35,479 nt of DNA from Bacteroidaceae bacterium (lineage in GTDB: Bacteria > Bacteroidota > Bacteroidia > Bacteroidales > Bacteroidaceae). Below, one piece after another: positions 2,072 through 25,095 of the stretch. Within the stretch, counting starts at the first letter, position 1; each line of letters begins with the position of its first letter. Position numbers and translations under genes: made by a program. The stretch lies in the NCBI GenBank assembly GCA_024695315.1, contig JAILIJ010000075.1, positions 1 to 35,479 of the forward strand, read 5' to 3'. A model generated the notes under the pieces. It did not search any database, was not told the DNA's origin, and was given only the letters and a program-made list of their open reading frames with translations.

Positions 2072-3097
2072 TTATTTCATGTATTTTCTTACATCTGCTT
2101 GCATCTTATCAGGATCTCTTCCTTCGGCTACTACTTTATGTTTTTTGTCGGTAATAATATAGTATGGAAGTACTGGGACTCCGATACTCTTTACGGTTGG
2201 TGATTCGAATGCAAGACCGTCGCAGTAGTGTTCGATATCATAAATTGAGTCGTTTCTGCTATCTAACTCGAACCTGTGATATTCTGTGTCAAGTGAAATA
2301 CATACAATTCGCCCAGAGATCGTATCCTGATCATCTTTCCTAAGTGTACGGATTTTCCATAACGTGTCGTAGCTTGAAGAGGCCCATGATGCCCAGAAAA
2401 GTATGATAGTATTGTCTTGATTGTCGTTCCAGAGCTTACATTTTTCTTTATTCTTTTTTTGTAATTCCACGTTCGAGATGACTTTGCCTACTTTTGAACG
2501 TTGTAGCGTTTTCAACTTTCCTTCGATGTTGAGAAGGTAGTCATTCTTAGGTTGAGCTTTCTTTATGACTTTGAGCAAGGAATTTGTTTTTTCAAAGTTT
2601 GTTCCTGCTTGTTGCACAAAGTAGCGGTCAAATAGATAGATGGCAACAGGAGAGTTGGAATATTTCTCAATGAAAGTTTCCGCTGTTTTGGTTGTTTCTG
2701 TTTGTGACTGTGAAGAAGTCGTTTTGCGGAATTGATTCATTAGTTCGTTTTCATCATTTCCGTCTACCTTGTAATTCCTTAAATCATTACCATTCACTTC
2801 ATAACTTATGTCCTGACCTGCACCTATGAAAATCACTTGCTCAACTGCGTTAGGGAACACGAGCATGTAAGGTTCTGTTTCTTTATTTGCTTCTCCAGTG
2901 TACACAAATTCTCCCTCTGCGACTTTTATGGTATCAAATCGTCCATATTCATCGGAGAGATTGTAGATGTATAATTCTCCTCCTGTCATACCTTCGAAGG
3001 AGCCTTCTAGTCGAAAAGAAGGACCGCTGGGGCCACATCCTAAAAGGAGAGTGGCTACCAGCGGTACGATATAAATGATAGAAAATTTATTCTTCAT
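2072..3097 (-). CDS. DUF4369-type thioredoxin-fold lipoprotein lacking the CXXC motif
   Basis: 341 aa; lipobox LLLGC; N-terminal DUF4369-like region (FRLEGSFEGMTGGELYIYN); thioredoxin core IILFWASWASSSYDTLWKIR. Confidence 0.8.
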   Translation of the reverse strand: MKNKFSIIYIVPLVATLLLGCGPSGPSFRLEGSFEGMTGGELYIYNLSDEYGRFDTIKVAEGEFVYTGEANKETEPYMLVFPNAVEQVIFIGAGQDISYEVNGNDLRNYKVDGNDENELMNQFRKTTSSQSQTETTKTAETFIEKYSNSPVAIYLFDRYFVQQAGTNFEKTNSLLKVIKKAQPKNDYLLNIEGKLKTLQRSKVGKVISNVELQKKNKEKCKLWNDNQDNTIILFWASWASSSYDTLWKIRTLRKDDQDTISGRIVCISLDTEYHRFELDSRNDSIYDIEHYCDGLAFESPTVKSIGVPVLPYYIITDKKHKVVAEGRDPDKMQADVRKYMK

Positions 3098-3102
3098 TGT
3101 TA

Positions 3103-4800
3103 TTACTTAACGATGCTAGCAATTGATTCTGCATAGCTCTTGAACTCAGCGTCGTTAGCAGCCTTCTTAGCGTAGTTGTTGTTGAGGTCAACTGCCTTCT
3201 TGAGGTTAGAAACGAGGTCAGTAGTTGAGTTTGTACGAGCTGCAAGAACAGCTGCGAGATAATAAGTAGTAGCGTCAGCCTCCTTGATGTTGTTAAGAAC
3301 TGTCTTAGCCTTAGAGTAGTCCTTGTTGAGGATGTAAGCAAGAGCAGCGCTGTTGCTGTTGCTATTGTTGAGCTTGCCGATAGCCTGGCTGTACTTACCC
3401 TGAGCGATGTAAAGCTGACCGAGAGCTTCGTCGTAGTTGTTAGCAGCAGTACCCTTAGCAATGTATGACTCTGCAGTCTTTGCGTCGCCATTCTGAAGAG
3501 CGATGAGACCGAGGTTTACATTTGGCTCAGCAGCCTTAGAGTTGATTGAAAGTGCCTTCTTGAAGTAGTCAGAAGCTGTAGCGTTATCACCCTTCTTGTA
3601 TGCAAGTTCGCCAAGGTTGTTGTAAGCACGGTAATCCTTTGGATAAAGCTCTGTAGTCTTTTTGAGGATTGTTTCCTTCTTAGCAGCATCAGTTGTGAGC
3701 TTGTTAGCAGCATAGAGAAGTTCCTCTACAGAAAGCTTTGAAGCGTCATCACTGAACTGAGCGAGGATTTCCTCGTCGCTACGTCCGATAACGTCGTAGT
3801 TGATTGTGAGACGTGAACGACGGAGTTCTGGGAGAACTGCATCAGCGAGTTCCTTATATACGCTTGAAATGTTCTTGATTTCCTGCTCACGCTGCTCTGG
3901 ATCAGAGTACATAGAGAGAACGCGAAGAATAACATCCTTGTCCTGGAGGTTAGACTGCTGTACGAGCTCCTTGAATCCGTCCCAGTCCTCAGCTGTGTAC
4001 TTTGTATCAACATCGCCAGAAAGTTTCTGCTTCTTGAGCTGCTGATTAACGTATGACTCAGAGTTCTTACCACGATTGTTAGCAAGGTTCTCGTTGAGAT
4101 CGTATGCACCATCTGGTGAAGCGTATGAGCTAACTTCTACATTGTTAAGCTTAAGACCCTTCTCGTCACCCTTGATAGTCTTCAACTGATTGATGAAATC
4201 CTTGATTGTTGTGCTATTAAGTTCGCTACCACGGAGATTTGCCTGACCGATGAGGAACTTGATCTGAGCTTCCTGCTTCTGAGCGATGATACGCTGGAAC
4301 TGATCAGCTGCCTCGCCTGTAGTTGCGCTCTTTGCTGCATCCTTAAAGAGTGTTGCTGTGCACTGTACACCCCAGTTGATCTTTACGTCGTTGAGCTCAA
4401 CAGATTTTCCATTCTTTGTTGCTGCGAATGTCATATAGAGTTCAGATGACTCCATGCCGTCAACCCAAGGGAAAGAGATCTTCATTGTTGATGCACCACC
4501 ATTCTTATAAGAGATAACTGTGTTGTTACCTTTGATCTTTTCACCCTGGAATGTCTTACCAGCACCTGTAGACTCTCCACCGTTGTAACGGAGTACTGGA
4601 GTACATGTGATGAGACCCTTCTTAGGCATAACCTTTGCAGGGATGTTTGCACTTACTGTTGCAGGTACTTCACCACCTACATACTCAAGTGGAGTAGGTG
4701 TAACATTAAACATGTCAGAAGTGAAGTTTCCAAATTTACTACAGCCAGAAAGCATAACTGCTGCTGCAGCAGGAATTAAAACATAAAAGTTCTTTTTCAT
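3103..4800 (-). CDS. Tetratricopeptide-repeat outer-membrane-type lipoprotein with an OmpA-like segment
   Basis: 565 aa; lipobox MLSGCSKFG; OmpA-like VEVSSYASPDGAYDLNENLANNRGKNSESYVNQQL; TPRs such as YPKDYRAYNNLGELAYKKGDNATASDYFKKALSINSKAAEPNVNLGLIALQNGD. Confidence 0.85.
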   Translation of the reverse strand: MKKNFYVLIPAAAAVMLSGCSKFGNFTSDMFNVTPTPLEYVGGEVPATVSANIPAKVMPKKGLITCTPVLRYNGGESTGAGKTFQGEKIKGNNTVISYKNGGASTMKISFPWVDGMESSELYMTFAATKNGKSVELNDVKINWGVQCTATLFKDAAKSATTGEAADQFQRIIAQKQEAQIKFLIGQANLRGSELNSTTIKDFINQLKTIKGDEKGLKLNNVEVSSYASPDGAYDLNENLANNRGKNSESYVNQQLKKQKLSGDVDTKYTAEDWDGFKELVQQSNLQDKDVILRVLSMYSDPEQREQEIKNISSVYKELADAVLPELRRSRLTINYDVIGRSDEEILAQFSDDASKLSVEELLYAANKLTTDAAKKETILKKTTELYPKDYRAYNNLGELAYKKGDNATASDYFKKALSINSKAAEPNVNLGLIALQNGDAKTAESYIAKGTAANNYDEALGQLYIAQGKYSQAIGKLNNSNSNSAALAYILNKDYSKAKTVLNNIKEADATTYYLAAVLAARTNSTTDLVSNLKKAVDLNNNYAKKAANDAEFKSYAESIASIVK

Positions 4801-10775: not shown

Positions 10776-10817
10776 ATTTTTATTTTTCTTAATAAATATA
10801 AATACCTATTTCTTTGC

Positions 10818-10825
10818 AAAGTTAC
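10818..10825 (-). promoter_or_regulatory. Candidate -7 element (TAACTTTG) upstream of the DEAD-box helicase
   Basis: Minus-strand TAACTTTG matches the Bacteroidetes -7 consensus TAnnTTTG. No convincing -33 TTTG at 19-nt spacing. Confidence 0.4.
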
Positions 10826-11036: not shown

Positions 11037-11080
11037 TTCTCCTTCGTTTGTCCTTCGTTTGTCCTTCGTAACTCGTTCGT
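11037..11080 (-). repeat. 44-nt intergenic element, copy A: four 11-nt units ACGAACGAGTT-ACGAAGGACAA-ACGAAGGACAA-ACGAAGGAGAA
   Basis: Direct reading of the minus strand. Aligns without gaps to copy B at 24974-25017. Confidence 0.85.
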
Positions 11081-11110
11081 AAAACTTATATCCAATTTTG
11101 TAAATTATAT

Positions 11111-11153
11111 TGGTTGTGAAATAGTCTATAATTTTGAACTAATTCCACAACCA
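11111..11153. repeat. Inverted repeat TGGTTGTG ... CACAACCA with inner TAGT/ACTA
   Basis: 8-bp perfect outer arms (11111-11118, 11146-11153), 27-nt spacer, 4-bp inner pairing. Confidence 0.5.
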
Positions 11154-11204
11154 AATATTATTTTACGAGAAAACCATTTATGAAATGTAAGCAGATGACT
11201 GTAT

Positions 11205-24826: not shown

Positions 24827-24937
24827 ATGTGGAATTTGCAATTTTTATGGTTGGCTATTATATTTGTAATACATCTGACGATTGCTCGTATATTACCTGT
24901 TTTTATGGGGGATGAGATGAAAATTTTCGAGGAATGA
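24827..24937 (+). CDS. Possible 36-aa single-pass membrane peptide (speculative)
   Basis: MWNLQFLWLAIIFVIHLTIARILPVFMGDEMKIFEE*; AAGG 8 nt upstream of ATG; hydrophobic stretch with charged C-terminus. Confidence 0.25.
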   Translation: MWNLQFLWLAIIFVIHLTIARILPVFMGDEMKIFEE

Positions 24938-24973
24938 AAATGATGTTTATCATCTATAAAAATCGAGTGAGTT

Positions 24974-25017
24974 ACGAACGATTTACGAAGGTAATACGAA
25001 GGGTTGTCGAAGGAGGT
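24974..25017 (+). repeat. 44-nt intergenic element, copy B: ACGAACGATTT-ACGAAGGTAAT-ACGAAGGGTTG-TCGAAGGAGGT
   Basis: Direct reading; gap-free alignment with copy A (minus strand 11080-11037), identical ACGAA/CGAAGG cores in the same 11-nt register. Confidence 0.85.
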
Positions 25018-25040
25018 GGGGTAAGAAATTACGCCAAATT

Positions 25041-25095
25041 GGTTACAAGTTTTTTACGGGTGTTTTTTATTTATGATAAGTAATAAATTGTAACC
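25041..25095. repeat. Inverted repeat GGTTACAA ... TTGTAACC
   Basis: 8-bp perfect arms at 25041-25048 and 25088-25095, 39-nt spacer, just 3' of copy B. Confidence 0.4.

Follow-up and report, generated by a model that had tools for sequence, protein, structure and literature searches.

Multicopy families of small RNAs and dispersed repeats are both already known in the Bacteroidales. The FopS sRNAs of Bacteroides thetaiotaomicron are 14 paralogous copies of approximately 65-70 nt with a single-stranded 5' seed and the RRM protein RbpB as partner, and their structure has been deposited in Rfam (PMC11697453). BrickBuilt of Porphyromonas gingivalis consists of 23-nt repeats, present in 1 to approximately 23 copies, with inverted-repeat ends, and is found at 19 loci (PMC4596501). 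The window analysed here (the whole stretch of 35,479 nt of contig JAILIJ010000075.1, from the Bacteroidaceae bacterium assembly GCA_024695315.1) contains two members of a family in which units of 11 nt, each with a 7-nt core (ACGAAGG) and a 4-nt linker, follow one another in phase: copy A, which is an array alone, and copy B, whose array lies inside a gene for a structured non-coding RNA (ncRNA), termed class I. Phased direct repeats of 11 bp that are bound cooperatively are also found in partition sites of the ParR/parC type, of which there are one or two per replicon, beside parM/parR.

Like the FopS genes of the same order, class I genes encode sRNAs in many copies, lie mostly between other genes, and have promoters and terminators. 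Unlike FopS, however, they number approximately 70, have a body of 155-168 nt of different sequence with a closed P1 stem, and carry the phased array and cassette ends. The two also differ in that no RRM protein of the RbpB type (PF00076, RRM_1) was found in 45 genomes of the genus at E 1e-6, with a Bacteroides control genome positive, and an RbpB-like partner was rejected on this basis. In addition, the family had no match in Rfam 15 (the best chance hits of a class I copy were at E 0.7 or worse), which argues against a known RNA family and, provided that this release includes the FopS structure deposited according to PMC11697453, would separate class I from FopS. The family shares with BrickBuilt its restriction to one lineage of the Bacteroidales, its strictly intergenic location, and tandem repeats that stand within a dispersed element and between conserved flanks, but its units are of 11 nt and mostly four in number, its ends are direct repeats and its RNA covaries. 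The 11-bp phased direct repeats are common to the family and to ParR/parC sites, but 114 distinct arrays were counted in 0.86 Mb of the source genome, beside mixed genes. A partition-type site, one of the explanations offered in the original prediction, was rejected in view of these mixed neighbours, the more than 100 copies, and array positions that are not shared between two related species above a rough chance estimate. Approximately 70 diverged copies of one structured ncRNA within a single genome, many of them in a cassette with defined ends, appear to be undescribed in the open-access papers searched. They provide one case for the joint study of RNA structure, tandem-repeat phasing and dispersal, in a group (rumen Bacteroidales) whose post-transcriptional regulators are poorly known, and they caution against taking such arrays for simple DNA operator sites.

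Architecture and distribution of the arrays

Both of the gap-free 44-nt arrays that had been described in the window are present. Copy A (positions 11037 to 11080, minus strand) reads, from 11080 to 11037, ACGAACGAGTT-ACGAAGGACAA-ACGAAGGACAA-ACGAAGGAGAA. Copy B (24974 to 25017, plus strand) reads ACGAACGATTT-ACGAAGGTAAT-ACGAAGGGTTG-TCGAAGGAGGT, the last being a conserved tail unit of the ncRNA, and a 40-nt profile matched exactly these two copies in the window and nothing in 100 shuffles. In copy B, the fourth core is TCGAAGG rather than ACGAAGG. The first unit ACGAACG is a feature of copies A and B but not of the family, as most arrays elsewhere start with ACGAAGG or with a degenerate unit. 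The linkers, described as variable, proved to be constrained, with TAAT, AATT and TGAT dominating.

The proposal that selection acts on the core and on its 11-nt register, rather than simple slippage, was borne out by a strict spacing. In 0.86 Mb of the source genome, ACGAAGG cores lay 11 nt apart 105 times, 22 nt apart 49 times and 33 nt apart 18 times, and all other distances up to 60 nt accounted for only 3 pairs. The units always run head to tail, exactly four of them are present in 58 of the 68 class I arrays, and within the class I RNA no part is better conserved than the array (97%, versus 83% for the P2 hairpin). Nearly all arrays are located in the gaps between long ORFs, and the few that overlap an ORF do so with a short, spurious-looking one.

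Genome-wide, a three-unit pattern with up to three mismatches had 186 + 135 = 321 matches in the source assembly (2.84 Mb in 376 contigs, 81% complete), a figure that counts overlapping matches inside one array separately, and the reversed pattern had none (0 + 0). The 114 distinct arrays, 68 of class I and 46 others, were counted in a 0.86 Mb sample picked around matches and so give no estimate of density; the phased arrays of this genome number well over 100. With two mismatches allowed, 239 matches were found in the source genome, 43 in a congener from water-buffalo rumen (MAG RGIG8147) and 0-3 in each of 35 other congeners, and with one mismatch there were 87 in the source genome and 1-2 in only two of 294 other genomes across the order. 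A scan of 84,980 species genomes (from which the source genome may have been absent) with the conserved 3' tail returned RGIG8147, the sheep-rumen MAG RGIG6920, one Treponema-binned contig with a full cassette, and one further match, by chance, within a protease-like coding sequence. The sparseness of matches among congeners, across the order and among species genomes indicates that the family is narrow, being confined to a few rumen Bacteroidales. Plasmid or phage carriage was rejected, as copy B had no match in plasmids, another class I copy had none in phages, and no viral contig in IMG/VR carried the ncRNA tail or the TAAT-linked form.

Arrays lie upstream of three orthologous genes in the source genome (L077, L144 and L147) as well as in RGIG8147 (L174, L173 and L182), in opposite orientation; by a rough estimate these three shared pairs are not above chance.

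Class I: a structured RNA gene in a cassette

Class I copies share much more than the array, namely a Bacteroidota promoter TTTG-N20-TATATTTG, a 5' end ATTCATCTGACGAC, a variable hairpin, the array, and a tail GTTGYCGAAGGAGGTGGGGTAGA that is often followed by a hairpin and a T run. In copy B, all on the plus strand, the -33 box (TTTG, 24835 to 24838) stands 20 bp before the -7 box (TATATTTG, 24859 to 24866, of the family TAnnTTTG). The ncRNA body, with the P1a/P1b closing stem, the P2 hairpin, the array and the 3' tail, occupies 24870 to 25037 and matches the structure model (R2) over this length with 89.1 bits (E 2.9e-19), and a possible terminator region with weak ACGCC...GGTGT pairing and then a T run lies at 25029 to 25069. 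A sigma-ABfr promoter and an intrinsic terminator are features of many class I copies. In 47 of 67, TAnnTTTG occurs at -11 to -13 from the modelled start; the -33/-7 spacer is most commonly of 20 bp (30 of the 34 counted), and a run of at least five T follows 49 of 67 copies, with an abutting hairpin in only 24. A sequence model of class I gave approximately 72 matches above 80 bits in the source genome and 12 weaker ones in RGIG8147; 69 near full-length copies were recovered, mainly in two length classes (165-168 and 153-157 nt). The orientation of the neighbouring genes is close to random, as expected for independent genes, and we infer that the RNA is expressed. A conserved small protein was rejected, since no reading frame is consistently open. 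A ribosome-binding tail was also rejected, because AAGGAGGTG, although Shine-Dalgarno-like, has an AGGTG part that in some copies varies together with the P1a bases opposite it and is lacking from a related species.

The secondary structure of the class I RNA is supported by strong base-pair covariation. In the model, P1a pairs positions 1-7 with 145-151, P1b pairs 10-18 with 132-140, positions 28-94 form the long hairpin P2, and the longer length class also has a short P3. A first RNAalifold run gave almost no structure, probably through misalignment of the two length classes, and the 168-nt class was then modelled alone. In a plain MAFFT alignment of 16 copies, 88.4% of cells pair, compared with 39-55% when the strands are slid by 1-3 columns, and 9 pairs changed on both sides, compared with 3.6 in shuffles, none of 500 of which reached 9. 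The R2 realignment of 81 copies from the two species gave 303 double-change cells versus 121 in shuffles (0 of 500 reached 303) and 82.7% of cells paired versus 41-55% when slid by 1-3 columns, counts that lean towards the structure because this alignment was fitted to it. Moreover, when 5' and 3' strands were swapped between copies, the native pairs were the more stable (-10.27 versus -9.70, sd 0.19).

The class I gene has sharp edges. In the 33 copies with both edges readable, the similar stretch runs from TTTTNTATGATAAGT or ATGATATCC to A[TC]GATAAGT, and outside these conservation falls to background. These end repeats have the same orientation, and most copies have them at a distance of 331-333 or 363-365 bp; they thus define a cassette of 332 or 364 bp with direct-repeat A(T/C)GATAAGT ends and unrelated flanks. 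In copy B, the right boundary repeat (ATGATAAGT, at +35) is at 25073 to 25081 on the plus strand, and the left one is unrecognisable, as left repeats are missing in many diverged copies. The Treponema-binned contig (JAILIC010000082.1) carries a full class I cassette that matches those of the source genome over nearly the same 345-350 bp, with unmatched flanks, and is probably a case of mis-binning or of mobile transfer. The edges coincide across genomes and no alignable empty site was found, so that it is from the edges only that we infer insertion. The cassette has no terminal inverted repeats, its ends being the direct repeats. A REP/RAYT system was rejected, as no Y1 transposase (PF01797) was present in the source genome (81% complete) or in RGIG8147, with 10 other genomes of the genus positive. 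At one locus (L126, minus strand, approximately 2967-3335), a degenerate array closely precedes an intact cassette on its left side, which looks like insertion of the cassette next to an older element.

Copy A and the arrays outside class I

Copy A matched the ncRNA sequence model (R1) in its array part only (27.8 bits, E 0.07) and thus does not represent the whole ncRNA. A kinase-like gene ends 124 bp before it, and 212 bp downstream of it is a -7 box (TAACTTTG, 10817 to 10824, minus strand), the first forward TAnnTTTG after copy A and probably part of the promoter of the DEAD-box helicase gene; no forward TAnnTTTG occurs between the upstream gene and copy A. Between the kinase-like gene and copy A there is also an inverted repeat (TTGGTTGTG/CACAACCAA, 11110 to 11154) without a T run.

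A few of the approximately 46 non-class-I arrays in 0.86 Mb are truncated or diverged RNA copies. Where an array-only copy has a codirectional downstream gene, a promoter is usually found after the array and none before it, and several such copies lie between divergent promoters. Between codirectional genes, the orientation of arrays outside class I is biased (14:4, p 0.03). A DNA-binding role for array-only copies such as A, upstream of promoters, is plausible. The genes downstream of array-only copies, whose functions were judged by eye from the sequence except for the scanned genes of the window, are functionally mixed and have no function in common. A link of the element to the helicase gene thus found no support, and a regulon site for the helicase was rejected on account of the mixed neighbours and of positions unconserved beyond the rough estimate.

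A subgroup of arrays, class II, has a conserved surround and adjoins transposase-like fragments and contig ends. This surround, with the inverted motifs CAATTTGTCAG ... CTGACATATTG, was seen at L033, L040, L043, L044, L045, L049, L051, L067, L069 and L079, many of which are at contig ends, and may mark where a larger mobile element ends. No convincing consensus fold was obtained for class II, and a structured RNA was rejected for these arrays.

Possible roles of the array

We favour, with a probability of roughly 0.6, the view that the array is the recognition module of a dispersed family, present in mobile small-RNA genes (class I) and in an array-only DNA form. The class I gene would be transcribed from its sigma-ABfr-type promoter into an RNA of approximately 200 nt, whose 5' and 3' parts would pair in P1 around the variable hairpin P2, and which would present three to four ACGAAGG units in a largely unpaired 3' part. 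The gene would have spread to unrelated intergenic sites as the 332- or 364-bp direct-repeat cassette, moved by recombination or transposition, and the second form, to which copy A belongs, would be the array alone in intergenic DNA upstream of promoters. As the array is more conserved than the adjoining hairpin, it is likely to be the recognition element, and probably serves as a multivalent site for one putative factor, displayed on RNA by class I and carried in the DNA by the other group. Such a factor might bind cooperatively, one unit per 11 nt, with the RNA acting as a multivalent scaffold or sponge and the array-only copies being either its DNA sites or decayed relatives. In class I, the factor would encounter the array in RNA form, since the last bases of the third unit vary (GG, GC or CC) and lie in the P1b stem. 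A single factor for both forms would be unusual and is the weakest step of the model, and the functions of the two forms may differ. That the approximately 70 mobile RNA genes jointly titrate one putative array-binding protein from approximately 40 or more chromosomal DNA sites upstream of promoters is decidedly unlikely in our estimation.

The cooperative DNA site of the original prediction is plausible for the array-only copies but does not, as a pure DNA-site explanation, fit copy B, which lies inside a covarying ncRNA gene. Arrays that are throughout cooperative sites for a nucleoid-associated or regulatory protein, with their presence in the ncRNA gene incidental, would agree with 11 bp being close to one helical turn, with phage initiator genes having iterons of 11 nt laid out in the same way, and with the position of array-only copies upstream of forward or between divergent promoters and their 14:4 bias, but not with neighbours that lack a regulon theme, nor with the variable end of the third unit, where RNA pairing overrides the DNA core; we consider this unlikely. 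It is possible, but doubtful, that the family is a repeat of a selfish or decayed kind, comparable to BrickBuilt: a non-autonomous, MITE-like element that uses its array and RNA for its own movement and has no function for the host. The copy number, which differs so sharply among species, the unconserved positions, the precise direct-repeat edges and the transposase-like remnants and contig ends beside class II arrays all point in this direction, but the element lacks terminal inverted repeats, no Y1/RAYT transposase was found in the source genome or RGIG8147, and the selection on array and stems in strongly diverged copies argues for a lasting function. Very unlikely is a family of antisense sRNAs in which, as with the seeds of FopS, an ACGAAGG seed pairs with CCUUCGU at mRNA start regions. 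FopS is a precedent for multicopy, promoter-driven, structured RNAs in Bacteroidales (PMC11697453), but the genus yielded no RbpB-type partner, and the antisense seed was rejected because CCTTCGT is not enriched at start codons (2 occurrences in 40 kb of start regions versus 3 in a 44 kb coding control).

The arrays might also imitate the iterons of DnaD/O-like phage initiators and act as decoys or belong to phage-dependent satellites. Three exact ACGAAGG units spaced by 11 nt occur in 15 IMG/VR contigs, in most of them inside an initiator-like gene, and all eight of the scanned initiator-like proteins match PHROG 2514. However, a control core, GGAAGCA, had 22 hits, many in apparent phage replication genes (judged by eye, unscanned), and since it behaves alike, the 7 + 4 layout appears to be general among phage initiator genes and the match of the ACGAAGG core is uninformative. 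Moreover, no such initiator was found in 45 genomes of the genus and neither the ncRNA tail nor the TAAT-linked form in the viral contigs, and all arrays examined adjoin unrelated genes rather than lying inside or beside an initiator gene. Mimicry of phage origins by the arrays, which we regard as extremely unlikely, was rejected, and the phage iterons serve as an analogy for cooperative binding, not as evidence of descent.

The arrays and the viral examples nevertheless have in common an 11-nt period with a 7-nt core. In the phage initiator genes (PHROG 2514; L193-L207), at least three units of a 7-nt core and a 4-nt linker run head to tail as in the family, but they lie within the initiator coding sequence, their core varies by phage, and they have neither an ncRNA nor cassette edges. 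The same organization, 11-nt iterons inside DnaD/O-like initiator genes with cores that differ by phage, was observed in both sets of IMG/VR contigs (L193-L207 and L208-L229), and a pattern as simple as this could help to find phage origins.
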